DNA of 23,101 bases from a virus: positions 1 to 23,101 of the IMG/VR virus record IMGVR_UViG_3300008952_000317; one strand, written 5' to 3'. The translations under genes and the position numbers were made by a program. The notes beneath the pieces were generated by a model. That model searched no databases. It saw only the letters and a list, made by a program, of their open reading frames with translations, and was not told where the DNA came from. Positions 1,412 to 22,889 of the stretch are shown piece after piece; within the stretch, counting starts at the first letter, position 1, and each line of letters opens with the position of its first letter.

Positions 1412-3280
1412 ATGGAAGAGAACATTGCTAATGAAATATTGTCAGATATCACGGTACACATGAAATATGCGCGTTATTTGCCAAAGAAAGAGCGCCGAGA
1501 ATCATGGAAAGAGTTAGTTACAAGAAATAAAAAAATGCACCTCAAGAAGTTTCCAGAACTGAAAGAGGAGATCAACGAAGCGTATAAATATGTTTATGAA
1601 AAAAAAGTTCTTCCTTCTATGCGTTCGATGCAATTTGGCGGCAAACCGATTGAGGTAGCTCCAAACAGAATTTTTAATTGTGCATATCTTCCCATTGATG
1701 ACTGGCGAGCCTTTAGTGAAACAATGTTCCTTCTTCTTGGTGGTACTGGTGTCGGATTTAGTGTTCAGAAACATCACACTGAAAAACTTCCAGAAATTCA
1801 AAAACCTTCAGTAAAGAGAACACGTAGGTTTCTTGTCAATGATTCCATTGAAGGTTGGGCAGATGCTGTAAAGGCATTGATGAGAAGTTATTTTAAGGGT
1901 GGCTCCAAGGTTAGATTTGATTACAGCGATATTCGACCGAAAGGCGCTAAACTTTTGACCTCTGGAGGCACCGCTCCGGGACCACAGCCTCTCAAAGAGT
2001 GCTTGGTAAAAATTGATGGCATCTTGCGAGAGAAAGAATCAGGAGATAAGCTATCCACCATTGAAGTTCATGACATTATCTGCTATGTTGCAGATGCAGT
2101 CCTTGCTGGTGGCATCCGCCGAGCGGCGTTGATTTCCCTATTCAGCGCAGACGATAAGGAAATGCTTGCTGCCAAGAGTGGCAACTGGTGGGAAAAGAAT
2201 CCGCAGAGAGGTCGAGCAAACAACTCAGTTGTATTAATGAGACATTTGATCACCAAGGGGTATTTTAAAGACCTTTGGCAGAGAGTACAAGCTTCAGGTT
2301 GTGGAGAACCGGGATTTTATTTTTCCAACGACAAAGACTGGGGTACCAACCCCTGTTGTGAAATCGCTCTGAGGCCCTACCAGTTCTGCAATTTAGTGGA
2401 AGTAAATGCAAGTGATTTATCGTCCCAAAAGGATTATGAAGAGAGAGTCAGAGCTGCAACGTTTATTGCCACTTTACAAGCGTCCTACACTGATTTTCAT
2501 TATTTGCGTGAAGTGTGGAGAAGAAATACGGAAAAAGATGCTTTGATCGGAGTTAGTATGACCGGGATAGCTTCTGGTAAAGTTTTAAAACTTGATATGC
2601 AAAAAGCAGTCAAGACCGTTCTTGAAGAAAATAAAAGAGTTGCGGAGAAGATTAATATTAACCCAGCTGCTAGAACAACGTGCGTTAAGCCAGCTGGAAC
2701 AACCTCTCTAACCTTGGGAACTTCTAGTGGGGTTCATGCATGGCATGATAAATATTATATTCGACGTATTCGCGTGGGGAAAAATGAGGCTATCTACACT
2801 CATCTAATAAGAAGGCACCCGGAGTTGGTCGAAGATGAATACTTTAGACCACACGATACCGCTGTGATTTCCGTTCCTCAAAAGGCACCGCATGGGTCAA
2901 TTCTGAGATCAGAAAGTGCTTTAAATATGTTGGAGCGCGTTAAAGAAATTAGCACTGATTGGACCAAAGAAGGACACATCAAGGGACAAAACACCCACAA
3001 CGTCTCAGCAACTGTTAGCATCAAAGACAAAGAGTGGGATGACGTTGGTGCATGGATGTGGGAAAATCGGAACAGCTACAATGGTTTGAGTGTCTTACCG
3101 TTTGACGATAAAGAGCACACTTACGTGCAGGCACCGTTTGAAAGCTGTACAAAAGAGCGATATGAAACTTTGTTAAAAACTCTTAAAAAGGTTGACTTAA
3201 CAAAAGTTTTAGAGTATGATGATAATACAAATTTAACTGGCGAGCTTGCATGCGCAGGCGGTCAGTGTGAAATAAAATAG
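1412..3280 (+). CDS. nrdJ: Class II (B12-dependent) ribonucleotide reductase
   Basis: Reduces ribonucleotides to deoxyribonucleotides in the cytoplasm using adenosylcobalamin, supplying dNTPs for phage replication without oxygen or a second subunit. The 622-aa product matches the monomeric ribonucleoside-triphosphate reductase type. The active-site loop NPCCEI at 313-318 gives N313, the thiyl-radical cysteine C315 and E317. C326 lies 11 residues later, the same spacing as C408/C419 in the Lactobacillus leichmannii enzyme, and C90 (motif FNCAYLP) would be its redox partner. The C-terminus has the shuttling pair C614/C619 (CAGGQC), again with the family's five-residue spacing. The protein is about 117 residues shorter than the 739-aa Lactobacillus enzyme; the loss is spread over several regions. 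The start ATG at 1412 has an AAGGAG at 1399-1404 inside the helicase end. Substrate level (NTP rather than NDP) is inferred from the family. The glutaredoxin at 20198 is a possible electron donor. Confidence 0.93.
   Translation: MEENIANEILSDITVHMKYARYLPKKERRESWKELVTRNKKMHLKKFPELKEEINEAYKYVYEKKVLPSMRSMQFGGKPIEVAPNRIFNCAYLPIDDWRAFSETMFLLLGGTGVGFSVQKHHTEKLPEIQKPSVKRTRRFLVNDSIEGWADAVKALMRSYFKGGSKVRFDYSDIRPKGAKLLTSGGTAPGPQPLKECLVKIDGILREKESGDKLSTIEVHDIICYVADAVLAGGIRRAALISLFSADDKEMLAAKSGNWWEKNPQRGRANNSVVLMRHLITKGYFKDLWQRVQASGCGEPGFYFSNDKDWGTNPCCEIALRPYQFCNLVEVNASDLSSQKDYEERVRAATFIATLQASYTDFHYLREVWRRNTEKDALIGVSMTGIASGKVLKLDMQKAVKTVLEENKRVAEKININPAARTTCVKPAGTTSLTLGTSSGVHAWHDKYYIRRIRVGKNEAIYTHLIRRHPELVEDEYFRPHDTAVISVPQKAPHGSILRSESALNMLERVKEISTDWTKEGHIKGQNTHNVSATVSIKDKEWDDVGAWMWENRNSYNGLSVLPFDDKEHTYVQAPFESCTKERYETLLKTLKKVDLTKVLEYDDNTNLTGELACAGGQCEIK
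3192..3220 (+). promoter_or_regulatory. Candidate sigma70-like promoter before groES
   Basis: TTGACT (3192-3197) and TATGAT (3215-3220), each five of six bases from consensus and 17 nt apart, lie within the end of the reductase gene. A transcript from here would begin near 3227 and carry the 96-aa gene and groES. It lies in coding sequence and could be chance in AT-rich DNA. Confidence 0.35.
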
Positions 3281-4676: not shown

Positions 4677-5550
4677 CCCAGTAAACAAGACAAGATTTAA
4701 TCTTGCTGGCGTCATACCAGTCGACGGCCAACCTTTGGATTTTGATTTTCCTTGGCACGATAGTTTAATATCGATTGGCCACAATTACTTAGCAGCAGAA
4801 AAAGCAGTTTTTGATTGTGCAATGGCGGGGTGTGACACGATATGGCTTGTATGCCCAAAAAATATGCAACCTCTTATAAGACATCGACTGGGTGACTATG
4901 TTGTTGATCCCTACAAATATTACAAGACTGCAAAGTTTGCTAACTATCCGGAAATAAAAGAAATTCCAATATATTATGTTCCATCCCACCCAAGAGACGT
5001 GGACCGCCGCACTTCTCTTTCTTGGAGTATCATCACTGGCGCTCACAATGCATGGCGTGTTGGAAGGAAGATAAGCAAGTGGACAACACCAGATAAATAT
5101 TTTGTTTCTTTTCCGTATGGGATGTTTACACCATACTATATGGGTGAACATAGAACAAAAATAAGAAGTGAACAGCCTTTTTGTCTGTCTTATGAGGGAA
5201 AAAATTATAAAAATGGTCTGTATCTACCCTTTACTTTTGGTAGTGCAGATTATTTAAATGTGAGAAGAAAATTTAGAAGTTGCGAGGTGAGGGGAAGTGA
5301 CAAAGATATGAATTATATTAAAAGAAAAGATGCCTATACTGGTAGATTTTTTACTCATGACTCTGTTTTTTCTGACGTTTTCGATGAAGGGGTTCACAAC
5401 GTAGATATACCTTGGTACTATGATGTATCAAGTTGGGATGGCCTAAAAAAATGGCTATCTTCAAACAATTCACTTGACAGACCAAAAGATTTTATATTAT
5501 CATATAGCGAGTTTAATTTACTGGGGAGAGAACTTAATGAAGAAGAGTAG
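4666..5550 (+). CDS. Putative nucleotidyltransferase-like protein
   Basis: The 294-aa product (ATG at 4666; a TTG two codons earlier is an alternative) may adopt a GT-A/nucleotidyltransferase-like fold. The N-terminus has AGVIPVDGQPLDFDFPWHDSL, where an early strand, a glycine-containing loop and a Pro-Trp segment resemble sugar-nucleotidyltransferases. It is followed by a helix and a strand TIWLVCPKNMQPLIRHRLGD, similar to the second Rossmann-like unit. Further on, HPRDVDRRTSLSWSIITGAH and a YFVSFPYGMFTPYY strand would hold the acceptor side. I do not see a fully diagnostic G-x-G-T-R-x9-P-K signature, so activity and substrate are unknown. It overlaps the gene before by 11 nt and the polymerase after by 14 nt. 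A role in modifying nucleotides, DNA or sugars is inference from fold impression only. Confidence 0.55.
   Translation: MEVNPVNKTRFNLAGVIPVDGQPLDFDFPWHDSLISIGHNYLAAEKAVFDCAMAGCDTIWLVCPKNMQPLIRHRLGDYVVDPYKYYKTAKFANYPEIKEIPIYYVPSHPRDVDRRTSLSWSIITGAHNAWRVGRKISKWTTPDKYFVSFPYGMFTPYYMGEHRTKIRSEQPFCLSYEGKNYKNGLYLPFTFGSADYLNVRRKFRSCEVRGSDKDMNYIKRKDAYTGRFFTHDSVFSDVFDEGVHNVDIPWYYDVSSWDGLKKWLSSNNSLDRPKDFILSYSEFNLLGRELNEEE
5474..5503 (+). promoter_or_regulatory. Candidate sigma70-like promoter before dnaE
   Basis: TTGACA (5474-5479) is exact consensus and TATCAT (5498-5503) is five of six, 18 nt apart. They lie in the last part of the upstream gene, with dnaE starting at 5537 after GGGGAGAG at 5523-5530. 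A transcript would begin near 5510. The coding context makes this uncertain. Confidence 0.4.
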
Positions 5551-8500
5551 TGTGCCATTTGTTGGGCTTCATGCACATAGTGGCGTCGGTTCGCCATTCG
5601 ACGGACTAGGATATCCAGCGGAGCATATGGACTTTGCTTTTGAGAATGGTAATAATTCTCTAGCCTTAACCGATCATGGAAATATGAATGGGTTGGCATA
5701 TCAGATTCAGCATGCTCAAGAGATGCACAAGCAAGGAAAGGACTTTAAGCCCATTTTTGGAGTAGAAGCCTATTTTTTACCAAGCCTTTCCAAATGGAAA
5801 GAGGAACTTGAGAGAGTCAGACAAGATAAGAAAGCTAAAAGACAGATTGACACTTCCAAGTCAGGTACAACAATAGAAGACGAAAGTACGAAATCTGCCA
5901 GTAAAAACATATTAAATCGTAGAAGACATTTAATTCTCTTAGCGCAAAACCAAACTGGGTTGAATAATATTTTCTCTTTAGTTTCCAAATCATTCCAGTC
6001 CGACAGCTTTTATCGATTTCCAAGAATGGATTATAAAATGCTTGCCAAACACAGTGAGGGAGTGATTGCCACAAGTGCATGTCTCGGCGGTGTATACGCT
6101 GGTAATTATTGGGAAAACAGAGAACAAGGCTCCGACGCCGTTATAGAAGCGATGAGAAAATCAACAGAAAAGATGCTTTCAATCTTTGGAGACCGTTGGT
6201 ACGGTGAGCTGCAATGGAACAACATTACTGAGCAACACGAGCTTAACAAATATATTATTCAGATTAGTAAAGAGTATGGCATTGAATTGATCTCGACAGC
6301 GGATAGTCACTATCCGACGAGGGATGCTTGGAAAGATCGCGAGTTGTACAAGAGGCTTGGGTTCTTGGGGAAGGGCAAGTTTCCAGAATGGCTGCCTACA
6401 GAACTACCGGCAGGCGTCGAGGAAGTTGGTTATGAAGCCTATCCAAAGAACGGTGATGATATGTGGTCATCATATAAACACTATTCAGACAAGGTTGGAG
6501 CTTCTTACAATGACGACCTTGTGCGAGAGAGTATTGAGAAAACATATAAGATTGCCCATGAGGATATAGATTCTTTCATGCCAGACAACTCGGTGCAGCT
6601 TCCTAGCTTTGTCGTACCAGCCGGAATGAGCGCCGATCATGCACTGGTCGCTGCATGTGTTGATGGAATGCGTTCAATGAATCTGCAGGACAACAAAGAA
6701 TATTTGAGTAGAATGAAAGAGGAACTCTATACGATTAGTGACAGAGGGTTCAGCAAATATTTTTTAACAATGAAGGCAATCACAGACAGAGCCTCCGAGC
6801 TACAGCTAACCGGCGCTGGCCGAGGTTCTGCTGCCGGAAGTTTGGTCGCATATGCACTGGGTATTACCCAAGTTGATCCCATCAAATACAGTCTTCTCTT
6901 CTCTAGATTTTTGAGGAAAGATGCGAAAGATTATCCAGATATCGACTATGATGTTAGTGACCCAATGGAACTTAAAGAGGTTCTCATAAACGAATGGGGC
7001 TCCAACACTGTTGTGCCTATCTCCAACTTCAACAAGTTGCAGCTTCGGTCTCTTATCAAAGATATTTCAAAGCTTTACGATGTCCCCTTCACAGAAGTCA
7101 ACGCAGTTACTTCTAAAATGATGGCCGAGGCCACACCACTGGCAAAGCGTTTCCATGGTATAAAAGCCGGTGTTTATACTCCAACCTTTGAAGAGGTCAT
7201 GGAGTTTTCCCACAGCTTAAAAAGTTTTCTGAACAAGTACCCTAATATCAAGACGCACGTAGAGGCTTTGATGGGGCAGGTTCGTTCTGTCTCTAGACAC
7301 GCCGGAGGAGTTGTTATTGGGGAAAATCTTGACAAGAGAATGCCTCTTATTAATAGCGGAGGAGTCACGCAAACACCGTGGGGTGAAGGTCAGCATGTCA
7401 GACAACTTGAACCAATGGGCTTTATTAAATTTGACATTCTTGGCCTTTCAACCCTAAAAATGATCGAAGGCGCCATATATCACATTTTGAAGCGCCATCA
7501 CGACGTTGAGGAGCCAACGTTCGAGCAAATTAAAAAATATTATGATGAAAAGCTCCACCCAGATGTGATAAGCTTAAAAGACAAAAAAGTTTATGAGAAT
7601 ATTTTTGGAGAAGGCAAGTGGGCGGGAGTGTTTCAGTTCACTGAGAAAGGTGCTCAAAACTTTTGTAAGCGTGTGAAACCAAAGAACATTGTTGATATTG
7701 CAGCTATAACCTCTATTTTCCGCCCCGGCCCTCTCTCTGCTAATGTTCACGAGGATTACGTTGACACCAAAAACAATGCCAAAGGCATACGGTATGGTCA
7801 TGAAATCGTAAAAGAGGTGACGAAGGAAACATATGGATTTCTCATCTTTCAAGAACAGATTGCGCTTTTGGCCCATAAGTTAGGTAATGACATTAGCTTA
7901 GACGAGGCCAACCTGCTCAGAAAGCTTTTGACAAAAAAGGGTACCGGTAAAGTAAATGAAAAAAAACAACAAATCTATAGAAAATTCGTCGAAGGTTGTG
8001 AATCTAAGGGAATATCGACTAAAGAGGCACAAAAGCTATGGCAGAAGTTTGAGTATTTTAGCGGTTACGGTTTTAACAAGTCTCATGCTGTTTCCTATTC
8101 TATTATTTCTTATCAATGCGCTTGGTTGTTGAATTATTACCCCGCAGAATGGATGGCGGCATTTTTAGACAAGGAGCCAGAGTCGAGAAAAGAAAAAGCG
8201 ATCAACCTTGCTAAGACTTTTGGGTTTGAAATAGAACCGATTCACATAAATAAATCAGGAAAAGTCTGGGAAATATCTGCTGATGGCAAAACCCTCATCC
8301 AGCCCCTTACTTCGATTAAAGGGTTAGGGGAAAAAGCAATTGAACAAATCATTCTCCACCGGCCCTTCAACACCGTTGAAGAGTTTCTTTTTAACGAAGA
8401 GGTCATTTATTCAAAATTAAATAAAAAGGCCATCGACGTTCTGATAAGAGCGGAAGCTTTGAATAATCTTGTAGACGAAAGATTTAACAACCTCAAACAC

Positions 8501-8962
8501 TTCTGGTCCGCTATTGCTGAAAATAGGCCAAAGAACAAAAAGAAACTAGGGGAAATGATAGAAGAATACAAGCATGTTGAGGATTTTACCCGTGATGAAG
8601 TTATTGAAAATAAGATCAACTTGAGTGGGATATATCCCTTTGGGTTAATTATGTCGGAAGATATAAAAAAGCGGTTGGAATATTATTGTGTGTCGCCATT
8701 GTCCCAGTATGACCCAGACTTGAAGGTTTCGTGGTTTATACCTCGCGAGGTGATCATAAAGAAAACACAGAAAGGAAGATACTATTATATTGTGAAAACT
8801 TTGGATATAAATTCTGAAATGATTGATATTAAATGCTGGGGGATAGACCCAAAGAAAGATAAAATCTATTTAAATAGACCGTATATGGCCAAACTAGACT
8901 ATCAAGAGCAGTGGGGCTTTTCTAGCCGTGCCGGTACTAAGAGTTGGAAATTATTAGGTTAA
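5537..8962 (+). CDS. dnaE: DNA polymerase III alpha subunit (DnaE type)
   Basis: Family C replicative polymerase that would copy the phage genome. I choose ATG 5537 (1141 aa) because GGGGAGAG at 5523-5530 sits just upstream and the protein then begins directly at the PHP domain; an upstream TTG at 5474 lies within the previous gene. The PHP metal-site residues all appear present: H12/H14 (HAH), D46-H47, E77, H131, C182 (TSACLGG) and D256/H258 (TADSHY). The palm has the PDIDYD motif at 467-472 (aspartates D468, D470, D472) and the third catalytic aspartate at D633 (KFDILGL). A GAGRGSAAGSLVAYALGI segment and the finger motif FRPGPLS follow. A helix-hairpin-helix (IKGLGEKAIEQI) lies near 925-940, and the rest suggests an OB-type C-terminus. 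The length is close to bacterial DnaE (~1160). No intein or frameshift is seen. The only exonuclease candidate in this window is the PHP domain itself. Confidence 0.95.
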   Translation: MKKSSVPFVGLHAHSGVGSPFDGLGYPAEHMDFAFENGNNSLALTDHGNMNGLAYQIQHAQEMHKQGKDFKPIFGVEAYFLPSLSKWKEELERVRQDKKAKRQIDTSKSGTTIEDESTKSASKNILNRRRHLILLAQNQTGLNNIFSLVSKSFQSDSFYRFPRMDYKMLAKHSEGVIATSACLGGVYAGNYWENREQGSDAVIEAMRKSTEKMLSIFGDRWYGELQWNNITEQHELNKYIIQISKEYGIELISTADSHYPTRDAWKDRELYKRLGFLGKGKFPEWLPTELPAGVEEVGYEAYPKNGDDMWSSYKHYSDKVGASYNDDLVRESIEKTYKIAHEDIDSFMPDNSVQLPSFVVPAGMSADHALVAACVDGMRSMNLQDNKEYLSRMKEELYTISDRGFSKYFLTMKAITDRASELQLTGAGRGSAAGSLVAYALGITQVDPIKYSLLFSRFLRKDAKDYPDIDYDVSDPMELKEVLINEWGSNTVVPISNFNKLQLRSLIKDISKLYDVPFTEVNAVTSKMMAEATPLAKRFHGIKAGVYTPTFEEVMEFSHSLKSFLNKYPNIKTHVEALMGQVRSVSRHAGGVVIGENLDKRMPLINSGGVTQTPWGEGQHVRQLEPMGFIKFDILGLSTLKMIEGAIYHILKRHHDVEEPTFEQIKKYYDEKLHPDVISLKDKKVYENIFGEGKWAGVFQFTEKGAQNFCKRVKPKNIVDIAAITSIFRPGPLSANVHEDYVDTKNNAKGIRYGHEIVKEVTKETYGFLIFQEQIALLAHKLGNDISLDEANLLRKLLTKKGTGKVNEKKQQIYRKFVEGCESKGISTKEAQKLWQKFEYFSGYGFNKSHAVSYSIISYQCAWLLNYYPAEWMAAFLDKEPESRKEKAINLAKTFGFEIEPIHINKSGKVWEISADGKTLIQPLTSIKGLGEKAIEQIILHRPFNTVEEFLFNEEVIYSKLNKKAIDVLIRAEALNNLVDERFNNLKHFWSAIAENRPKNKKKLGEMIEEYKHVEDFTRDEVIENKINLSGIYPFGLIMSEDIKKRLEYYCVSPLSQYDPDLKVSWFIPREVIIKKTQKGRYYYIVKTLDINSEMIDIKCWGIDPKKDKIYLNRPYMAKLDYQEQWGFSSRAGTKSWKLLG

Positions 8963-12286: not shown

Positions 12287-12519
12287 AGGAAGACAAAGTT
12301 AACCACCCCACACATTATACTATCAACTGGAGGGGAAATAAAGCCATAGAGACTTATGATTATATCAAGTCTTGGGAAATGGGGTACCCTGAAAGCAATA
12401 TAATTAAATATGTTACAAGACATCCCTATAAAGGAAAATCTCTGCAAGATTTAAAAAAAGCTCGCTGGTATCTTGATCGGCTTATCGAAGATATTGAAGA
12501 GGGTCAAAATGGAAACTAA
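12268..12519 (+). CDS. DUF3310-like protein (phage nucleotide-kinase-like)
   Basis: The 83-aa product matches the DUF3310 family seen in many phages: the N-terminal signature VNHPTHYT (about 12-19), then a helix with EXYDYIKSWEMGYPESNIIKYVTRH reading close to the family core, and the ending QDLKKARWYLDRLI. The family is often described as an unknown-function protein linked to a nucleotide kinase annotation; no kinase motifs such as a P-loop are visible here, so I do not assert an activity. An AGGAGGGAG just before the ATG supports the start at 12268. It overlaps the acidic protein by 19 nt and the IMPDH/GMP-reductase gene by 11 nt. Confidence 0.85.
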   Translation: MAGSELKEDKVNHPTHYTINWRGNKAIETYDYIKSWEMGYPESNIIKYVTRHPYKGKSLQDLKKARWYLDRLIEDIEEGQNGN

Positions 12520-13543
12520 GAAAGCGTTAACCTATGATGACGTGCTACTCGTCCCACAATACTCAGACATAAAAAGTAGGAAGGAAATTTACATTGGCAA
12601 TATTTTAGATAACGCCCATTGGTTTGCATTACCAATTATTTCTTCCCCGATGGACACCATCACAGAGTCAGAAATTGCCTACCAAATGTGTAAGAATGGC
12701 GGTCTAGGTATCATCCACCGTTACAACACGATAGAAGAGCAGGCGTTGCTTGTTCATGAAACATACAATCTACTTCTCAAAGCTGCAGTTAAACCACAGG
12801 TCGGAGCAGCCGTTGGAGTTACCGATGGGTACCTTGAACGCGCAGTGACGCTTTGCGCCAATGGCGCAGAAATAATCTGTATTGATGTGGCACATGGCCA
12901 CCATCTTCTCGTTAAAAACGCTATTGAAGCTCTTAAAAAAGAATTAGATTCTAATATTCATATCATGGCTGGCAATGTAGCCACCCTTGAGGGGTTTAAT
13001 GATTTAGCGGACTGGGGAGCGGACAGTATTCGATGTAACATCGGTGGGGGTTCTATCTGTTCGACGAGGGTCCAAACCGGCCACGGCTTACCGGGTCTTC
13101 AAACAATTATGGATTGTGCCAGAACTGACCGAGATGTTAAAATAATTGCTGACGGCGGCATACGGTCCAGTGGCGATATAGTTAAAGCACTTGCCGCAGG
13201 AGCGGATTTTGTTATGGTTGGCTCATTATTGTCAGGCACAGACGAGACACCCGGTGAAACGATTACAACCTCCACTGGCCTCGTTAAAAAATATCGAGGT
13301 ATGGCCAGTAGTGACGCGCAAATGGATTGGAGAGGTCGAACCTCGTCAGAAGAGGGAATAAGCACTCACGTAAAATATAAGGGTTTAGTGGGAGATATTT
13401 TAAAAAGCCTCCGCAAAGGAATAAAATCTGGCTTGTCCTATTCCGGCGCAAGAACAATTCAGCAGTTCCAGACGAAGGCTAAATTTGCCTGCCAAACGTC
13501 TGCAGGACTTAACGAAAGCAAAACTCATATTTTATTCGGATGA
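12509..13543 (+). CDS. IMPDH/GMP reductase family enzyme, CBS-less
   Basis: An (alpha/beta)8 purine nucleotide oxidoreductase of 344 aa. It lacks the CBS (Bateman) domains of ordinary IMP dehydrogenase. The N-terminus LTYDDVLLVPQYSDI and the active-site loop GGGSICSTRVQTG, with the catalytic cysteine C184, are clear. The phosphate site ADGGIRSSGDIVKALAAGADFVMVG also fits. After KYRGMASSDAQMDWRGR there is no Arg-Tyr flap dyad expected of IMPDH; the stretch TSSEEGISTHVKYKG reads closer to the GMP reductase loop (RASEG-type). GMP reductase (GMP to IMP with NADPH) is therefore the likelier activity, but the C-terminus ACQTSAGLNESKTHI resembles IMPDH. I choose ATG 12509 because GAGGG lies upstream and the frame upstream (12473) would start inside the previous gene. 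The neighbours are small unknowns; purine-pool control during replication is an inference. Confidence 0.85.
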   Translation: METKKALTYDDVLLVPQYSDIKSRKEIYIGNILDNAHWFALPIISSPMDTITESEIAYQMCKNGGLGIIHRYNTIEEQALLVHETYNLLLKAAVKPQVGAAVGVTDGYLERAVTLCANGAEIICIDVAHGHHLLVKNAIEALKKELDSNIHIMAGNVATLEGFNDLADWGADSIRCNIGGGSICSTRVQTGHGLPGLQTIMDCARTDRDVKIIADGGIRSSGDIVKALAAGADFVMVGSLLSGTDETPGETITTSTGLVKKYRGMASSDAQMDWRGRTSSEEGISTHVKYKGLVGDILKSLRKGIKSGLSYSGARTIQQFQTKAKFACQTSAGLNESKTHILFG

Positions 13544-14177: not shown

Positions 14178-14723
14178 ATGAGTGACAAAACCTTACTAAA
14201 CGAAGGTACTATTCGTCGATTTATGAAATTAGCTGAAATTGAACCTCTCACTAATCCATTCGTAGATCGTTTGAATGAAGAAATATATGAAGACGTAGAG
14301 AATCTTGAGGAACAAGATGACGAAGGAATGGACGTAGAGCTTGATGAGCCTGACATGGATGCAGAGCCTGATATGGGTGACATGGGAATGGACGCGGAAG
14401 AAGATCCCATGGACGATATGGGTGACATGGATGATGATCCAGCAGATGATCCAATGGAGGAACTTAAAACGGGCATTGCTAGTGCCGTGGGCGAGTATCT
14501 GGAGGATGCAATAGCCGATGGAACACTGGAGATTACCACAGGTGATGACATGGAAGCTGGCGACGAGCTTGATTTGGAAGCCGAGCCAACCGATGAACCA
14601 GACGTAGGCGTAGACGCAGAGGTTGATGTCGATGTCGAAGAAGAGCCAGAAGAGTTGGAAGAAAAAGCCCTTGTAGCAGAGGTTGCTCGACGAGTCACAA
14701 AAAGAATTCTAGCTTCTCGATAA
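14178..14723 (+). CDS. Highly acidic protein with basic helical ends
   Basis: The 181-aa product has three parts. A short N-terminal helix (LLNEGTIRRFMKLAEIEPL, about 5-23) and a basic C-terminal helix (LVAEVARRVTKRILASR) flank a long Asp/Glu/Met/Gly-rich stretch (about 42-160) that looks disordered. The acidic part includes a 16-nt direct repeat (14370-14385 and 14415-14430). Its charge is very negative. This layout is reminiscent of phage scaffold-core or DNA-mimic type proteins, and it stands just upstream of a ClpP-fold protease, but neither role is shown. The ATG at 14178 has AAGGAG upstream (14164-14169). The gap before it (14120-14177) contains the ACTAATTA-type motif described in the findings. 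There are no cysteines. Confidence 0.75.
   Translation: MSDKTLLNEGTIRRFMKLAEIEPLTNPFVDRLNEEIYEDVENLEEQDDEGMDVELDEPDMDAEPDMGDMGMDAEEDPMDDMGDMDDDPADDPMEELKTGIASAVGEYLEDAIADGTLEITTGDDMEAGDELDLEAEPTDEPDVGVDAEVDVDVEEEPEELEEKALVAEVARRVTKRILASR
14370..14430. repeat. Direct repeat within the acidic gene
   Basis: The 16-base word GATATGGGTGACATGG occurs at 14370-14385 and again at 14415-14430, exactly 45 nt (15 codons) apart and in frame. It encodes a repeated Asp-Met-Gly-Asp-Met pattern within the acidic stretch. It suggests that the acidic part grew by duplication. Confidence 0.8.
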
Positions 14724-14767: not shown

Positions 14768-15181
14768 ATGTGGGAATTTTTTTGGTTTTTCCTTGGCGCG
14801 TTCTTTTATAAATTTTTAGCTTATATTTTAGGTGTCGCTCAGAAGGGACGCTTCGTAAACGATATCAGACTGCTTGCTCTCCAGTTATTGGGTCAGGCTA
14901 TGATGGAATTGGCCACGGTTAGGACTTTGAGAGGCAACGCGATTAGAAGAGATAATTCATTGTCTGATGAAGAGAGCAAACTGATTGAAAATGATGATGA
15001 GCTATTTTTTGACAAATGGAAGAGAGACGCTGTTGAAAAATTGAACAGTTCTGTCCCGCCCGTGTATAAGCCGTATGTTGACGTAAAAGATTGGGAAGAG
15101 GTAACACAAATTTTAATTGATTGTCATGATTATTCCCTTACAAGAAGTAGAGAAAGGGGACTAAATGATGAGCGATACTAA
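14768..15181 (+). CDS. Membrane-anchored protein of unknown function
   Basis: The 137-aa product begins with one hydrophobic segment (about 2-22: WEFFWFFLGAFFYKFLAYIL) that looks like a membrane anchor without a cleavage site. The rest is a soluble, charged domain with a helix (FVNDIRLLALQLLGQAMMELATV), an acidic turn and a final Asp/Arg-rich helix. I do not recognise it. It overlaps the ClpP-like gene by 17 nt and may be translationally coupled to it, which could tie it to head assembly at a membrane or to a different process. CGGAG (14753-14757) lies about 10 nt before the ATG. Few cysteines are present, so a disulphide role is unlikely. Confidence 0.8.
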   Translation: MWEFFWFFLGAFFYKFLAYILGVAQKGRFVNDIRLLALQLLGQAMMELATVRTLRGNAIRRDNSLSDEESKLIENDDELFFDKWKRDAVEKLNSSVPPVYKPYVDVKDWEEVTQILIDCHDYSLTRSRERGLNDERY

Positions 15182-15785
15182 AGATAACAAAGAGACAGAA
15201 CAAGAAAAAGATACTTTAAGAATTAGCCTTTCCGACCTTGCCCCGCCCGAAGCCCCCCAAACGAAAACAATTGCCCTTTTTGGAGACCTAGATGAAGAAG
15301 CTGTTGAAAATGTTTGTATGGCCCTTGTTACTCTAAAAGATTATTGTTCTAAAGAGAAAACAGAAGAAGAAAATACTATTAATTTTTGCATTTCAACTTG
15401 GGGCGGCGATGCACTGGGGATGTTTGCGATTTATGATCTTATGCGCATGGTAAAAAAAGATTGTCCGATAAGCACATTTGCCATTGGAAAAGTAATGTCC
15501 GCTGGTGTACTGTTGTTAGCTGCAGGCACGAAAGGAAAGAGAAAAATTGGTAAGAATACAAGAATTATGATACACTCTATACGAGGTGGACACTACGGCC
15601 CAGTCCATCTTCTAGAAAATGAAATGAAAGAGACTAGATGGGTGCAGGAACAACACATAAATGCCATAGTGGCAGAGACAAACCTCACAAAGCGCGACTT
15701 GAAAAAAATGTTAGATAAAAAAGTTGATGTCTATCTGAACGCCGAAGAGGCGGTTAAGATGGGCATAGCTGATATTATCATATAA
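15165..15785 (+). CDS. ClpP-fold serine protease
   Basis: A serine protease of the ClpP/crotonase fold, 206 aa. The triad reads S112 in GKVMSAGVLLLAAGTKGKR (the ClpP nucleophile strand GQAASMGAVLLAAG), H137 in RIMIHSIRGG and D188 in KKVDVYLNAEEA, whose ending EAVKMGIAD equals the ClpP EAVEYGLVD. The first ~35 residues are charged and Pro-rich and lack homology. In phages, ClpP-like proteases next to structural genes are generally prohead maturation proteases, but this one lacks a fused scaffold domain. ATG 15165 and 15168 are both possible starts; AGGGG (15157-15161) favours the second slightly. It overlaps the membrane protein by 17 nt and is followed after 18 nt by the 537-aa protein. A free ClpP-like protease acting on host proteins is the alternative. 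Confidence 0.9.
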   Translation: MMSDTKDNKETEQEKDTLRISLSDLAPPEAPQTKTIALFGDLDEEAVENVCMALVTLKDYCSKEKTEEENTINFCISTWGGDALGMFAIYDLMRMVKKDCPISTFAIGKVMSAGVLLLAAGTKGKRKIGKNTRIMIHSIRGGHYGPVHLLENEMKETRWVQEQHINAIVAETNLTKRDLKKMLDKKVDVYLNAEEAVKMGIADIII

Positions 15786-15803: not shown

Positions 15804-17417
15804 ATGGCTACAATTGATAATCTAATAAGCAAATACTTTGAACCAAAACAACCCGTTGGCTTAGAATCTCTCCTTGAGATGATTCAAGGAGCGAGGTTCC
15901 ACGATGACTCCATAAACGAAGAGGAGCAAATCGTTGAACAGGAAATGAGTACCGAACTTTCTGGTATTCCCGAGATTGGTGTTTCAGAATTGGGCTGGGC
16001 AGGTTTGAGGACCGGCGATGCTGGCCCCATTCCATCGGAACAAAGAGCACAGCTGGCAAATTTTTTAAACAATGTTGCCAAGGGTGGAGATCTACAAGAT
16101 AAGATTGCAAAGTTAGCTGAGTTTTATTCGATGAATGAAGAGACTATGAAAGAACTTCAAAGCACGAATCAAGCAGAAACTATTAGAAAGACGATGGGTT
16201 ATTTAACTTTTTATAAAACTTTAACTAAAATTATCACCAATTTTAATGCCTCTGCCGCAGGCTTTGCTTTTGAGTCTTTTCTTGGCGTTTTGCTTGGAGG
16301 CAATCAAATATCAACAGGTAACAAAACAATTGCCGACCTAACAACTGCCGATGGCACTCCCATCTCTTTAAAACTTTACAATGAGAAAACAGTACATGTC
16401 GGCGGTAGCTATACGGACTTGGTTAACGATTTAGTGCGAGAGCCAAATCTTATGCAATATGTTGTAGTCATGAAAAGTCTTGAAGGTGAAGGCTTAGATT
16501 TAGAAGGAACTTTGAAATTTTATAGATTTAATTTCACGTTAGACAATGTATATGAGATCTTAGGAGCAAGCCGTCACCCGGAGGTTTTACAACTCCCTAG
16601 CGGCTTTGTTAACAACCCAGAAGAGTTTAACATTGAACTTCCAGAATATATGTCCGCAGAAGAATCTGAGAAAATGTTTGTAGATGCGATTAAAAACTCT
16701 GTTCAAGATGCTGCCATGGCTGAGAGACTTTTACAGGCCGTTAACTGGGCAAAGAACCCAGCTATCTTTTCTTCACCCAGAAAACCCGGCTTTTCAAAGA
16801 TTAGCGTCGGCCAAGGTGGCCGCTCATGGAGACCTAGTTGGAGTGCACCACTGCTTAGGTTGCTGAAAAACTTTGCAGAAGAGGGCAATATCGAATCCAA
16901 TCAAGTATTGGATTACTTTGAGCTGATTTATAATGCCAATGAAGAGGTTCGTAAAAATCATATTGCAGTTAACAGTGCTCGAAGGGCAATTGTGAATAAA
17001 GTCCTCGGGGATAACTTTATAAGTTCCAGCCGCTCTGCGGAATTTTACGACACTTTATCTCCCCAGCTAAAGAAAATAGCCCTGCGAGTGTCTCGTGGCT
17101 TTATTAATACACACCAGTTCAGCATGAATAGGCGTGATGTCTTATATGTTCCTGATTCAGCACTGCCAGAAGGTCAGTCAGACGTAAAAATAGGTGAAAT
17201 TGAAATTGGTGCTTCAAGGATTCAAAGAATGATAGACGGTGTTAGAAACGTGATCAACACGGCGATTTTTGACATTTTCAACAACTTGAAGCTTTTGACG
17301 ACCAATATTCAAGGTTATTTTGCTGGTGGAATGGAAGATGACAAACTTGCCGACACCGCCATTCAGGCGTCAACGCAAATTAGTGAAAAGACCACACAAA
17401 TAAAATCTGAAAAATAA
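15804..17417 (+). CDS. Large protein with possible PD-(D/E)xK core
   Basis: The 537-aa product has no name I can give. The N-terminal ~50 residues are acidic (INEEEQIVEQEMSTE). At 150-200 lies the most readable block: E157 in a helix (AFESFLGVLLGG), D178 (IADLTTADG; also D183), and S188-L189-K190 (PISLKLY). That spacing resembles the PD-(D/E)xK nuclease fold (helix E, strand D, SxK). A VGGSYTDLVNDL segment follows. The C-terminal half is helical (about 330-470) with a final region rich in Gln/Thr/Ser. A structural or portal-associated head protein is possible, since the block lies with the ClpP protease. The start ATG 15804 follows AAGGGG at 15785-15790 at a long spacing of about 13. The nuclease reading is tentative, as the DxE/ExK acid is replaced by Ser. 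Confidence 0.75.
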   Translation: MATIDNLISKYFEPKQPVGLESLLEMIQGARFHDDSINEEEQIVEQEMSTELSGIPEIGVSELGWAGLRTGDAGPIPSEQRAQLANFLNNVAKGGDLQDKIAKLAEFYSMNEETMKELQSTNQAETIRKTMGYLTFYKTLTKIITNFNASAAGFAFESFLGVLLGGNQISTGNKTIADLTTADGTPISLKLYNEKTVHVGGSYTDLVNDLVREPNLMQYVVVMKSLEGEGLDLEGTLKFYRFNFTLDNVYEILGASRHPEVLQLPSGFVNNPEEFNIELPEYMSAEESEKMFVDAIKNSVQDAAMAERLLQAVNWAKNPAIFSSPRKPGFSKISVGQGGRSWRPSWSAPLLRLLKNFAEEGNIESNQVLDYFELIYNANEEVRKNHIAVNSARRAIVNKVLGDNFISSSRSAEFYDTLSPQLKKIALRVSRGFINTHQFSMNRRDVLYVPDSALPEGQSDVKIGEIEIGASRIQRMIDGVRNVINTAIFDIFNNLKLLTTNIQGYFAGGMEDDKLADTAIQASTQISEKTTQIKSEK

Positions 17418-17472: not shown

Positions 17473-19050
17473 ATGAAACAGTTTAGTAGTTCTAATACCC
17501 TTAGAGGTAAATTGGAAGAAGGTATGCGCATTGTTGCGCAAAATGTAGCTTCTACGCTTGGGCCGAAGGGAAGAACGGTGATTCTTCATCGGAAAGACAA
17601 AATGCCATTTGCAACCAAAGATGGAGTAACAGTGGCCAAGTTTATAGACTTGGAAGATCCATTCGAGAATACTGGTGCACAAATCGTAAAACAAGCAGCA
17701 GAAAAAACAAATCAAGAAGCTGGTGATGGGACCACAACGACAACGGTCTTAACCTATGCAATGTATCGCGAAGCTCAAAAATATTTAACCTCTGGTGCCC
17801 CTCCAATAGAATTAAAGAAAGGGATGGAATTGGCTATAGAATATCTGGTTAAAGAAATTGAGAATTCAGCAACGCCGGTCAAGTCGCTGGAAGACGTTGA
17901 GAACATTGCAACTATTTCTGCAAACGGGGACAAAACAATTGGAAAGCTTGTAGCCAAAGCAATAGACTTGGCTGGCAAGGACGGCTCTGTGACTATTGAA
18001 GATGCTCGCTCTATCGAGACGAGCCTTGATCTGGTAGAAGGCTTTAGGTTCAACTCAGGTTACCTAGCCTCTGCGTTCATTAATGAAGAGCAACGAGGAC
18101 TAGTTAAGTATAACGAGTCTTTGGTAATGGTAACAGACGAAAAGATAGAGTCTGTAGAAGAAATGCTTCCTGCCCTAGAGATTGCCTCTCGGGAGGGAAG
18201 ACCCTTTGTTATCGTCGCAGAGGACATTCAAGACCAAGCCCTCGCAGCTTTAATAATGAATGCAATGCGTGGAACTATGCGCGTCGTAGGGATAAAAGCT
18301 CCAAACTATGGCGAGGAACGCAGAAATACACTTAAGGATTTGGCCCTTTCAGTGGGCGCTACATTTATTTCAAGGGAGCAAGGGGTCTCTTTGAAGGAAG
18401 TTAAGCTAACAGACTTTGGAGAAATTAAAAAACTTGAAGTGAGTAAAAATTTAACCACCATGGTTGGAGGTTCCGGAGACTTAGAATTAATTGAAAAAGA
18501 GATTGACAAATTAAAAGCAATAATGCAAGATACAGATAGCATGACAGAGTGTGAGAAACTACAGGAGAGAATTACGAGGCTTGCCTCCGGCGTATCTGTA
18601 ATTAGAGTCGGCGGCGCCACAGAAATTGAGATGATTGAAAAACGCCACCGTGTTGCAGACTCGCTGGAAGCTGTTCGCTCTGCCCAGCTGGAGGGTATTC
18701 TCCCCGGCGGCGCCTCGTTCCTAGCTCAACAATCTAAAAAATTGTTTAAAAAACTTGAATCTGAAACTGAGAATGAGTGGCAATCTATGGGAATAAAAAT
18801 TATAGAGCAGTCCATAAAAGAACCGCTCAAGCAAATGGCATTGAACGCAGGGGAGTCTGTTGATATTATACTGGACAAGGTAGAAAATGGCAAAAAGGGA
18901 ATGGGCTATGACTTCAAGATAGGAAAACCTGTCAACGTACTCAACGCAGGTATCATTGATCCAGCAAGAGTGACACGATGTGCCCTTCAAAATGCTGTCT
19001 CTGTTGCTGGTACACTTATTTCATCTAATTATGCGATTATTGAGAGCTAA
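17473..19050 (+). CDS. groEL: GroEL-type chaperonin (Cpn60)
   Basis: ATP-driven folding chamber protein, expected to form a ring of seven or fourteen subunits in the cytoplasm and assist phage protein folding. The 525-aa product has the ATP-binding motifs: LGPKGRTV (29-36), D50 in TKDGVTV, and GDGTTTTTV at 84-92 with D85. The catalytic Asp, D396 (RVADSLEAVRSA), equals E. coli D398. The apical domain has GYLASAFIN (196-204): the E. coli Tyr199 and Phe204 equivalents are kept, but Tyr203 is replaced by Ala201. It also has the conserved AEDIQDQALAALIMNAMRG stretch. The C-terminus ends at SSNYAIIES and lacks the GGM-repeat tail of E. coli GroEL (548 aa). An exact-consensus sigma70 promoter lies directly upstream. 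There is no groES beside it; the GroES-like gene is 14 kb upstream. A phage enzyme, not a host fragment, is indicated by the surrounding gene density. Confidence 0.97.
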   Translation: MKQFSSSNTLRGKLEEGMRIVAQNVASTLGPKGRTVILHRKDKMPFATKDGVTVAKFIDLEDPFENTGAQIVKQAAEKTNQEAGDGTTTTTVLTYAMYREAQKYLTSGAPPIELKKGMELAIEYLVKEIENSATPVKSLEDVENIATISANGDKTIGKLVAKAIDLAGKDGSVTIEDARSIETSLDLVEGFRFNSGYLASAFINEEQRGLVKYNESLVMVTDEKIESVEEMLPALEIASREGRPFVIVAEDIQDQALAALIMNAMRGTMRVVGIKAPNYGEERRNTLKDLALSVGATFISREQGVSLKEVKLTDFGEIKKLEVSKNLTTMVGGSGDLELIEKEIDKLKAIMQDTDSMTECEKLQERITRLASGVSVIRVGGATEIEMIEKRHRVADSLEAVRSAQLEGILPGGASFLAQQSKKLFKKLESETENEWQSMGIKIIEQSIKEPLKQMALNAGESVDIILDKVENGKKGMGYDFKIGKPVNVLNAGIIDPARVTRCALQNAVSVAGTLISSNYAIIES

Positions 19051-20205: not shown

Positions 20206-20455
20206 CCATTACTACGTTTGGGCATTATCTGATTGTCCCTTTTGTCTACAGGCCGTTGAGGAGCTTGTAAAACAGAAAACTTTCTTCTCTACTTTTGTAA
20301 TGGATGAACAACGAGATGAACTAAACGCGCTTAAGAAGGCTCGCGAGTGGAGTACGGTTCCACTAATTGTTGTGAAAGAAGGAAATGGCAAAGAAAAATT
20401 GATTGGCGGATTCACTGATTTAAAAAAATGGTTTGAAACATCGGAGGAAAAATGA
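20198..20455 (+). CDS. Glutaredoxin-like thiol-disulphide oxidoreductase
   Basis: The 85-aa product has the thioredoxin-fold layout of a small glutaredoxin. The active site C13-P14-F15-C16 follows a strand (YYVWALSDCPFC), a cis-Pro motif T-V-P-L-I-V is near residue 53, and GGFTDLKKWF ends the protein, matching the GG[Y/F]xDL helix start. It would reduce disulphides with glutathione or NADPH systems. A likely partner is the class II ribonucleotide reductase at 1412, whose C-terminal C614/C619 pair needs reduction, though the genes are 17 kb apart. The ATG at 20198 overlaps the previous gene by 8 nt. It overlaps the next gene by four bases (ATGA). Confidence 0.88.
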   Translation: MDDHYYVWALSDCPFCLQAVEELVKQKTFFSTFVMDEQRDELNALKKAREWSTVPLIVVKEGNGKEKLIGGFTDLKKWFETSEEK

Positions 20456-20856
20456 TTGAGTGTGACTTACTACCCATTATAAAAAGATATTCTAGAACGG
20501 AAAGCAAGAAACCAAAGCATGGCATGTATTGCCAAAGTTGGTTTTGGGCGATAAAGGGATATGCAAAGAAAAAATGGGTTGTTTTGGTTAATATTGACTT
20601 GGATTACGAAGAGGCCAAAAAAGAATGTGAGGATGACGAAGCCATAGTCAAAAGATGCGTTGAGTTTCTCAACACCCCTCCAAAAAGTAAATATGGCAAG
20701 GTTAGAAAGAGAAAAGCGCTCTATGGAGATTTTGATCCCGAGCCGTATTCGTTCCAGATAAAAGAAGATGACAAAGGCAAGAAATATATTTTAGCTAGAT
20801 TGGTGACAAGCCAACAAAAAAATAAAAAGTTTCATGGTACCGGCCCCAGCATATGA
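20452..20856 (+). CDS. Hypothetical basic protein
   Basis: The 134-aa product is Lys-rich (about 20% Lys) with a hydrophobic/aromatic strand, GMYCQSWFWAIKGYAKKKWVVLVNIDLD, and a long charged region with PPKSKYGKVRKRK at about 77-89 that looks exposed. The C-terminal portion (FDPEPYSFQIKEDDKGKKYILARL) has beta-type spacing. No family is recognised and there is no catalytic motif; nucleic-acid binding would fit the charge. GGAGG (20442-20446) lies upstream and the start overlaps the previous stop (ATGA). The next gene overlaps by four bases. Confidence 0.7.
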   Translation: MIECDLLPIIKRYSRTESKKPKHGMYCQSWFWAIKGYAKKKWVVLVNIDLDYEEAKKECEDDEAIVKRCVEFLNTPPKSKYGKVRKRKALYGDFDPEPYSFQIKEDDKGKKYILARLVTSQQKNKKFHGTGPSI

Positions 20857-21200
20857 GCAAAAAAGTTGTCTACGCTCTGAAGAAGGCTGAACAAGAATAT
20901 TACCTAAGAGATCTATTAAACAAAAGAGACAAAGCCTTTTTCACACTTCGAGAAGTTTTTGATGATAAACAACCCGATGAGTGGGTAACTTTTTATTCTC
21001 TTCTCTGTGAATACATCGGCATACTTTACCATTTAGGGGACATTCTTGAGGACTTGGAACTCACTTGTGAATGGGATGACGAAAACAAACAGTGGATCAT
21101 GGGTCCGCAGTTAGCGATGCGAGTTTCTGTTTATCTTACTTCTGAGCGTACCTCCTACCGAGAATTATTATTCCACAATACCAGCCTTTCTTTACATTGA
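20853..21200 (+). CDS. Hypothetical helical protein
   Basis: The 115-aa product is not recognised. It has an N-terminal Lys-rich helix (KKVVYALKKAEQEYYLRDLL), an aromatic-rich middle (WVTFYSLLCEYIGILYHLGDIL) that could be buried, and a short acidic region (DLELTCEWDDENKQW). No strong membrane segment: the middle helix has too many charges at its edges. The start overlaps the previous stop (ATGA) and there is no Shine-Dalgarno, so it probably relies on coupling. It ends 15 nt before the 557-aa gene. Confidence 0.7.
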   Translation: MSKKVVYALKKAEQEYYLRDLLNKRDKAFFTLREVFDDKQPDEWVTFYSLLCEYIGILYHLGDILEDLELTCEWDDENKQWIMGPQLAMRVSVYLTSERTSYRELLFHNTSLSLH

Positions 21201-21215
21201 TAAACTAATTAATAC

Positions 21216-22889
21216 ATGCGCAAACTCTTTGAATCATTCCGAAAGTATAGTTTGTTAACCGAAGATCAACTTCTTATCGAGGGCCGCAAACAAGATGCGG
21301 CTAAAAAATACCCAGAACTAGCTAAGAAACGTGAAGAACTCGATGGCGAAAGTTTGTTGGATGTTCTCATAGATAAAGACCCTTCCGGCAATCAAAAATA
21401 TCTAATGCGAGCAGCTTATTTGCTGCAGCGTTCAATAGAGATGGCAGAGCAGAACGATGGGTATTACCCTTTTTACGGCAAACAATGGCCAGAAGATGCC
21501 GATGACAATCTTTATTCCCCATGGGGAGTAGCTAATAATATAGCCAATCAATTATCTCAGTATCACAAATTAACGCCGTGGCTTCGAGGCAGTCAAGAAA
21601 CTTATAAAGATATAAACAACATTGATTCTTACTCGCAATTGCAAATGGTAGTCCAAAGGGCCTTGGGAGCCAAAGAAGATGCAGAGCGTAAAAAAGAAGA
21701 GAAGAAGCGTGAAAGCGCTGCAGCCAGAGAGGGAAGCGAGCTTGTTGATGATAACGACCACCAATTGGTCATTCGACCTCTTACAGCAGAAGCCTCTTGT
21801 TATTATGGCAAGTCCACAAAGTGGTGTATCTCAGCAACGCGGTCGACCAACTACTTTGATCAATACACTTCCGAGGGTAAATCATTTTATTTCCTTTTAG
21901 CCAAGCGCAAGAACGTAGAACCAGCGTATAAAAAAATAGCGATGGTGGTAGACAGTGACGGCAGCATTGATGAATACTTTGACTCGGAAGATGATACCAT
22001 GCGTAGTAGTGAATTTAGGGATGCCATTCGACAAATAATGGTTGGCCCCGAGGTTAGTGGTAGGATGGTGAGTTTAGAAGAGCGTGAGCCTTATAAGAAA
22101 GATGCTATTTTAGATGGATTAGAGGAGTGGAAGGGCATTAACGGTTTTGATTTTGATCGTGAAGACCACGAGGACGAAGATGGCCTACTTGATTTAGTGA
22201 TGATGTTTAACGACTTTATTGTAGAAGAATATATCAAAAATTTGCACAACATGGCGCAAGAGGATACTCAAAACAATCCCGCAGGAACCCCCGAAGAAGA
22301 TTACGAAGAAAAGTTACGAGAATACCAAGGGGGATGGAACCATATAGATGTTTCACTAATGTTCCCCTCCGAGACAGGCGCCGACAAAACCCTTTGGGAG
22401 TCCAATATCTGGGTGGATGTAGAAAATTATGTTCTTAATGTGTTCTCGGCACAAGGCTACCAGTTTGCCCCCGGCGTGATGGAGGGAGAAATGGAAGAAG
22501 AGCTGCGCACGTCTGTAGACAACGCTCTTAATAATATTAACATCTGGCCAGAAGAAATAGAACAAGAGAATTGGGGTGATGCTCCGGGCACCGAGTTTAG
22601 AATTCGTGTTGAAGATGGCGGTGGCTCCCTAGAGGAGTTTGAGCAGTTCTTAGATAATCAAGGCGCCAATGATGTAAACTTCAACGACGACTTTGCTGAA
22701 TACCTGAGAGATCATCTTGAAGACGAAGGCGTTATCTTCAGTCCTGAAAAAGTGGAAGCAGAAAAAGAAGCCGAGCGCCAAAAAACTAGAGATGCCGAGT
22801 ACTGGCCCGACCCCGAAGAAAAGAAACAGCAACTAGAATTACCCCTCCAAGAAAATAAGAAAAAAATTAGAATATTACTCAAATCTTAA
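21216..22889 (+). CDS. Large protein with a KWC-type conserved block
   Basis: The 557-aa product has a distinctive N-terminus (LFESFRKYSLLTEDQLLIEG) and a conserved-looking block at about 180-235: LVIRPLTAEASCYYGKSTKWCISATR with C195 and K202-W203-C204, then FDQYTSEGKSFYFLLAKR and IAMVVDSDGSIDEYFD. I have an impression of similar TKWCTA-type blocks in phage proteins but no named function. Residues 140-180 are a charged helix (KEDAERKKEEKKRE). After ~270 the protein is acidic, with many Glu and Asp, aromatic clusters and Pro-Glu stretches, and it ends in a Lys-rich tail (KKKIRILLKS). No Shine-Dalgarno lies before the ATG at 21216. The 15-base AACTAATTAATACAT overlaps the start codon's first bases. 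Confidence 0.75.
   Translation: MRKLFESFRKYSLLTEDQLLIEGRKQDAAKKYPELAKKREELDGESLLDVLIDKDPSGNQKYLMRAAYLLQRSIEMAEQNDGYYPFYGKQWPEDADDNLYSPWGVANNIANQLSQYHKLTPWLRGSQETYKDINNIDSYSQLQMVVQRALGAKEDAERKKEEKKRESAAAREGSELVDDNDHQLVIRPLTAEASCYYGKSTKWCISATRSTNYFDQYTSEGKSFYFLLAKRKNVEPAYKKIAMVVDSDGSIDEYFDSEDDTMRSSEFRDAIRQIMVGPEVSGRMVSLEEREPYKKDAILDGLEEWKGINGFDFDREDHEDEDGLLDLVMMFNDFIVEEYIKNLHNMAQEDTQNNPAGTPEEDYEEKLREYQGGWNHIDVSLMFPSETGADKTLWESNIWVDVENYVLNVFSAQGYQFAPGVMEGEMEEELRTSVDNALNNINIWPEEIEQENWGDAPGTEFRIRVEDGGGSLEEFEQFLDNQGANDVNFNDDFAEYLRDHLEDEGVIFSPEKVEAEKEAERQKTRDAEYWPDPEEKKQQLELPLQENKKKIRILLKS

Follow-up and report, generated by a model that had tools for sequence, protein, structure and literature searches.

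The KWC gene and its surroundings

The window, the whole stretch of DNA that was analysed, was a virus record of 23,101 bases from IMG/VR. The ORF list and its translation gave an ATG-started ORF of 557 aa at 21216-22889 on the plus strand, the large protein to which a sequence-only reading of the window had pointed. The ORF is supported by full-length homologues, the two closest of which (IMG/VR loci L002 and L003) showed 71% and 63% identity, respectively, and further homologues were found in L144, L145 and L146. The product, a putative capsid-targeted cargo, is here called the KWC protein after the motif YGKSTKWC at residues 197-204 (21804..21827).

The neighbours of the KWC gene in the window were replication, nucleotide and chaperone genes. 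PHROG matches among the ORFs at 1412-3280, 5474-8962, 12473-13543, 15165-15785 and 17473-19050 included ribonucleotide reductase, DNA polymerase, a ClpP-like protease and GroEL, a bacterial-type gene set gathered in one phage fragment. The set also contains an ORF that we take to be IMP dehydrogenase, an assignment made by reading the sequence alone.

The same-strand ORF at 20853-21200 stops 15 nt ahead of the ATG of the KWC gene. The absence of a Shine-Dalgarno sequence, noted in the sequence-only reading, was confirmed, as no such word of 4 nt or more was present in the gap (21201..21215, plus strand) or at -20 to -4 of the ATG. A word of this kind was present in 21 of the 29 other window ORFs examined (at the first start or first ATG) and absent in eight. 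The same reading had placed the ATG next to a repeated AT-rich motif and proposed a leaderless transcript, and neither proposal was supported. The repeated motif was rejected, since TAATTAATAC occurred only once in the window; ATTAATAC was found twice on the plus strand and once on the minus strand. A promoter scan detected no sigma-70-like site on the plus strand in 20400-21216, and the six sites detected in total in the region were no excess over the 5.3 expected by chance. The 60 nt 5' of the gene had one mismatch to those of the nearest relative, L003, and differed in the five other relatives read (L002, L144, L145, L146 and L111). The leaderless start was therefore unsupported, given the upstream ORF 15 nt away, the absence of a promoter-like site and upstream DNA that was unconserved beyond L003. 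It is simpler to assume that the gene is translated from a polycistronic message.

The KWC domain and its viral family

The KWC protein had a pI of 4.49 and contained 21.5% Asp and Glu. The remainder of the protein outside the KWC block had been described as acidic and low-complexity; the former was correct, while the latter was not. The segment entropies were ordinary (3.44-4.05 bits), and the full-length AlphaFold2 model, based on a 69-sequence alignment, showed a mean pLDDT of 90.2 and a pTM of 0.66, with pLDDT of 70 or more for 527 of the 557 residues. Given this high pLDDT, the acidic rest of the protein is predicted to fold and is not low-complexity. The weakest blocks of the model were residues 1-20 (pLDDT 68 and 66) and 201-210 (56). 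A helical module was modelled at residues 24-172 (21285..21731), ahead of the KWC domain at residues ~174-260 (21735..21995), and an alpha+beta domain at residues 377-508 (22344..22739) was followed by C-terminal helices at residues 510-557 (22743..22886), all encoded on the plus strand. When residues 135-290 were modelled alone, the KWC domain was also predicted to fold with confidence (pLDDT 90.7, pTM 0.77). Foldseek gave no PDB fold match at E <=0.001 for the full-length model, and VIA structural re-comparison gave only middling scores: the KWC domain reached a Z of 4.3, and the best Z overall, 5.4, lay in the C-terminal part. The absence of a PDB match does not show that the predicted KWC fold is new. 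The search of BFVD gave 19 matches to the KWC domain with E <=0.001, including a PA5oct structural protein, CcrBL9 and three Marseillevirus LCMAC201/LCMAC202 proteins.

The block LVIRPLTAEASC...TKWCIS contained two cysteines, Cys195 and Cys204, and was followed by an Asp-rich stretch in the sequence and by strands in the model (residues 223-229, 240-245 and 251-255), in agreement with what had been read from the letters. The proposal of a distinct domain in a family without known function also stood. The whole protein had no Pfam match and no PDB relative by sequence, and the low-E PHROG matches were two families of unknown function that covered residues ~160-271. The match to PHROG 17056 (E 1.7e-14) placed residues 160-271 on profile positions 107-215 of 420 and left the rest of the profile unmatched. 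No curated family matched the KWC domain above its cut-off.

A degenerate pattern, [FY]GKxTKWC, was found in at least 119 stretches of IMG/VR, in which at least 111 distinct KWC ORFs were read, a count that includes ORFs clipped at locus ends and at least one spurious ORF (25 aa). Among named phages, 14 of the 50,697 INPHARED records carried the domain at E <=0.001 with L096 and L124 as queries, and a third query recovered 13 of the same 14. They consisted of 11 PA5oct-like Pseudomonas records, two of CcrBL9, a Caulobacter phage, and one of Salicola phage SCTP-2. A family profile built from 75 KWC domains matched all of 50 KWC records, including PA5oct, SCTP-2 and CcrBL9, which were all outside its building set. 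Two or more matches were seen in 28 of the 50 records, with a range of 1 to 8. The profile matched none of 793 bacterial genomes from two phyla (0/398 and 0/395), and a pattern scan of one genome per species for 84,980 species found no cellular KWC protein. The eight cellular stretches that fitted the pattern were rejected as chance matches, because their open frames were short (20-79 aa) and lacked the domain. As far as sampled, these sequence searches point to an essentially viral family.

The SCTP-2 paralogues (CDS 435 and others) resembled the window protein in having the domain with TQWC or TKWC and in matching PHROGs 17056 and 28193, whereas they differed in their C-terminal parts and in their number, with seven profile matches in one genome. 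The C-terminal part of one paralogue matched DUF4116 just below the cut-off of that family. The Marseillevirus LCMAC201/LCMAC202 proteins A0A481YZT2, A0A481Z016 and A0A481YW50 matched the domain fold in BFVD at E 2.2e-7 to 3.8e-7 with 21-26% identity, and their annotations differ, one being an ankyrin repeat protein and one a glutamate-tRNA ligase. Marseilleviruses have eukaryotic hosts. These three proteins with the predicted KWC fold therefore suggest that the domain extends beyond phages.

Because the search pattern itself fixed GK.TKWC, residue conservation was judged on 22 thinned domains outside the pattern selection, a few of which belong to close kin of the window's virus. Gly198 (21/21), Trp203 (21/21), Cys204 (22/22) and Tyr217 (22/22) were invariant where readable, and Thr201 (20/21), Phe214 (20/22), Gly221 (20/22) and Asp259 (20/21) were nearly so. 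Lys199, Lys202 and Lys240 were rejected as invariant residues, as their conservation was partly made by the pattern and fell below 65% in the unselected domains. Cys195 was kept in 15 of 21 domains; judged by conservation, the second of the two cysteines is the one that matters more. The claim that the block is conserved thus proved right far beyond chance, on the evidence of the homologues, the PHROG 17056 match and the invariant residues. The helical module was also common to distant members, with the motifs DPSxNQKYL (DPSGNQKYL in the window protein) and KDIN. We found no published description of the family in the literature searched, including a word search of the available portions of PMC7824862 and PMC5512222. 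KWC is a large viral family that we could not find described, and the window protein is a real member that is predicted to be folded.

The domain is probably a distant relative of PcfJ (PF14284), a domain carried by phages and by mobile elements of bacteria, for which no functional study was found in the literature searched. The window domain matched PF14284 with 17.3 bits (E 0.0044), below the curated cut-off of 25 bits. The same family was the commonest Pfam match among the 75 single KWC domains, at sub-threshold level in nine of them (best E 0.0019), compared with at most two domains for any other Pfam family. In BFVD, eight PcfJ-like proteins came next after the KWC proteins, at ranks 21, 25, 26, 27, 31, 33, 34 and 38 among the best 50 listed, with E 1.1e-3 to 0.21 and a TM-score on the query of only 0.36-0.45. 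An hhalign comparison with 16 bacterial PcfJ domains gave a score of 20.1 (P 0.012) at a probability of only 3.5%, and one of 60 column shuffles beat the real score, at 22.9. The alignment set Cys204 on the Cys of the PcfJ His-Cys motif. The hhalign comparison with five PcfJ-like neighbours, for which the alignment was shallow, gave no match. The His-Cys motif and close aromatic residue of PcfJ were absent from KWC, which has Trp203-Cys204 instead and Tyr217 13 residues on; all 16 bacterial domains had His-Cys, a motif that had served to pick them. We speak of a relative and not of a member because the match lay below the PcfJ cut-off and the His-Cys motif was lacking. A clear PcfJ protein (PF14284, E 6.5e-12) was encoded near a KWC gene at L056:12588-14411, and relatives of this protein adjoined KWC genes in 11 loci.

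The N-terminal L/I-x-E motif and mosaic divergence

Three L/I-x-E sites, LFE (4-6), LTE (14-16) and LIE (20-22), were located within the first 22 residues of the KWC protein (21216..21281, plus strand), a putative propeptide. L/I-X-E is described as the cleavage site of the T4 prohead protease gp21, which cuts after it, in the text available from PMC9026906, and the N-terminal propeptide of T4 cargo proteins, ~10-20 residues long, as a capsid-targeting sequence in the portions available of PMC9026906 and PMC7411985. The T4-type trait of an N-terminal, propeptide-like segment with L/I-x-E was present in the window protein, at residues 4-22.

The motif was frequent across the family. Among thinned KWC proteins, 56 of 69 carried [LI]xE somewhere in their N-terminal 30 residues, while shuffling of these residues gave a mean of 29.7 and a maximum of 41 in 500 trials. 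When the neighbouring ORFs of the same loci served as the comparison set, with the KWC and other proteins classed by the profile, the loose motif was found in 56/74 KWC proteins and 239/655 neighbours. The stricter form [LI]xE[GSAND][RKST] was found in 36/74 and 21/655, respectively, and the Fisher p value of 9e-26 is overstated because KWC proteins share ancestry and the counts are not independent. The control motifs [LI]xD and [LI]xK were enriched 1.03- and 1.04-fold. The related motifs [LI]E, [LI]xxE and [LI]xQ were also enriched near the N-terminus (1.8-, 1.9- and 2.2-fold, respectively), and a Leu-rich first helix therefore accounts for part of the loose signal. Residues 2-11 and 16-31 were indeed modelled as helices by AlphaFold2, and the N-terminus may be no more than a part of the fold.

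One of the 21 neighbours with the strict motif was a Gp23 major capsid protein (L039, E 5.7e-98), encoded 4 kb from the KWC gene. In the Gp23-type capsid proteins of KWC records, [LI]xE was located 13-18 residues ahead of the Gp23 domain in all eight readable loci (L174-L179, L185 and L186, of which L176-L178 are near-identical); ten more were internal pieces or misread.

Comparison of the KWC protein with its nearest relatives revealed a mosaic divergence. Relative to L003, residues 1-155 were 97% identical, residues 156-508 only 34-59% and residues 509-557 79%, when GroEL and IMP dehydrogenase of the same two loci were 82% and 81% identical. Relative to L002, residues 377-508 were 79% identical and residues 291-376 41%. 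These segment identities indicate that the protein is a mosaic whose middle part, with the alpha+beta domain, is fast-changing or exchanged among relatives, and whose C-terminal helices are kept in near relatives. Paralogues, and a body that changes behind a kept, putative targeting end, recall the internal proteins of T4 and the head proteins of giant phages as described in the excerpts available. Another ORF of the window, of 537 aa at 15804-17417, was hypervariable, with 25% identity to its L003 counterpart between a ClpP-like protein (77%) and GroEL (82%). It had no Pfam match and only weak PHROG matches.

A putative head cargo and its alternatives

The closest link of the family to a virion was EST35_0205 of phage PA5oct (QCG76086.1), which contains the KWC domain and is annotated in its record as "structural protein" with the note "ESI-MS/MS". 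We take it to be gp205 of PMC6950013, which is counted as virion-associated in the available part of that paper. EST35_0205 shares with the window protein an N-terminus of MKLFE..LYE, the helical module with DPTSNQKYL and KDIN, and a domain with TRWC that matched PHROG 17056 (E 8.4e-9) and the domain fold in BFVD (E 7.8e-5). The alignments show only 23-29% identity between the two proteins, and EST35_0205 differs in its C-terminal half and in its gene position, which adjoins the large terminase and MS-detected proteins. An S77 prohead protease was found in 16 of 50 KWC records, Gp23 in 16 and both in 15, most records being fragments. Of the eight records longer than 280 kb, seven carried S77 and Gp23 (two of them near-identical), and the exception, CcrBL9, had the KWC domain and neither of the two. 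Neither S77 nor Gp23 turned up in the larger, though incomplete, records to which the relatives L124, L091 and L143 belong, and no portal, capsid or S77 gene was seen in the 23-kb window. The ClpP-like protein at 15165-15785 matched PHROG 94, "head maturation protease" (E 3.1e-24), and could serve as the maturation protease of this phage.

The best explanation, to which we give an even chance, is that the KWC gene product is head cargo in the T4 style, a protein that is packaged, trimmed and ejected. The first ~22 residues would serve as the capsid-targeting propeptide with which the protein enters the prohead core, where the prohead protease would cut after L/I-x-E, most likely after Glu22. 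The mature protein would then be ejected with the DNA, and in the host the KWC domain, with its invariant Trp203, Cys204 and Tyr217 and its probable relation to PcfJ, would do the work. It would probably counter host defence or aid host takeover. The middle and C-terminal parts of the protein change fast. We infer packaging, cleavage, ejection and activity for the window protein; the evidence on virion presence (PA5oct) and on an S77 prohead protease (some KWC phages) came through homologues. The internal head proteins and Alt of T4, which are capsid-targeted, cut by gp21 and ejected, likewise begin with an L/I-x-E propeptide, and the internal head proteins combine a conserved targeting end with a variable body, according to the portions of the literature available. 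In contrast, no sequence relation of their bodies to KWC was found. If the cargo reading is true, a large unannotated family of proteins from environmental phages would be predicted head cargo, the N-terminal L/I-x-E would provide a sequence rule for finding more ejected proteins of uncultured phages, and PcfJ, a domain of mobile elements, would gain a context for its activity.

Alternatively, the KWC protein may act in the cytoplasm during infection, in takeover or in an auxiliary role, with the Leu-rich N-terminus as an uncleaved part of the fold. The replication, nucleotide metabolism and chaperone genes of the window fit such a role, as do the nucleotide-kinase-like and DNA-methyltransferase-like proteins that are frequent neighbours in the largest KWC lineage, and the N-terminus is modelled as helical. 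KWC genes are also mostly distant from Gp23: among the 15 records with both S77 and Gp23, just two (G139 and G141) had the KWC gene less than 5 kb from the main Gp23 match. Adjacency to head genes was thus rejected as a general rule, although L039, which is not in this set, has the two genes 4 kb apart. The MS annotation of the PA5oct homologue, the excess of the strict motif over neighbouring ORFs and the same motif ahead of the Gp23 domain in KWC phages nevertheless argue against a purely cytoplasmic protein, and we regard this explanation as rather unlikely.

The PA5oct annotation would also suit a head component, structural or scaffolding, which is retained in the particle or destroyed at maturation and has no role in the host. 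The several L/I-x-E sites recall the fragmented core proteins gp22 and gp67, as described in the part of PMC9026906 available, and the motif is shared by the acidic window ORF at 14178-14723. However, presence in only some phages, 1 to 8 paralogues and fast divergence of the body are a poor fit to an essential building block, and we judge a solely structural role improbable. A virion-borne polysaccharide hydrolase is hardly credible: it derives from the guess for gp205 in the accessible text of PMC6950013 (alpha-N-acetylglucosaminidase, 66.5% model confidence), and glycosidase identity was rejected, as no glycosidase family matched the window or PA5oct protein, a glycosyl hydrolase family matched one of the 75 single domains (E 0.025) and the PDB fold search was empty at E <=0.001.

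A wider form of the cargo reading would make KWC a virus-specific and possibly catalytic (Cys204, Asp259) branch of a PcfJ superfamily, delivered by the capsid behind a T4-type peptide and built with exchangeable parts under the pressure of an arms race with the host. Given its occurrence in marseilleviruses, the domain would then serve as an effector module for viruses of both bacteria and eukaryotes. In this full form, we think the reading unlikely.

Several other ORFs resembled the KWC proteins at their N-termini. The ORF at 14178-14723, with ATG 14178 as the likely start and AAGGAG upstream, was strongly acidic (36.5% D+E) and began with MSDKTLLNEGTIRRFMKLA, which bears L-x-E; similar N-termini were seen in L003, L144, L111 and L145. 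This ORF could encode a prohead core protein. A ~900-aa protein 3' of the KWC gene in the two closest relatives (L003:12238-14916 and L002:2687-5386) had the same kind of N-terminus, and its L003 copy had no Pfam match; the window ends before the position of this gene. ADP-ribosyltransferase-like neighbours with the motif (L041 and L141) were dropped as evidence, since their Pfam matches were weak and sub-threshold (E 0.014 for L041:3678-4898, the larger of two L041 neighbours, and 0.027 for L141). In the largest KWC lineage, one family of neighbours (L113:2090-3301) matched the phiKZ-like internal head proteins (PF12699) weakly and below the cut-off (E 0.0013). The KWC neighbours L041:3209-3673 and L041:3678-4898 both begin with MKRFKEFL..E, and this pair is possibly further cargo with the same tag.
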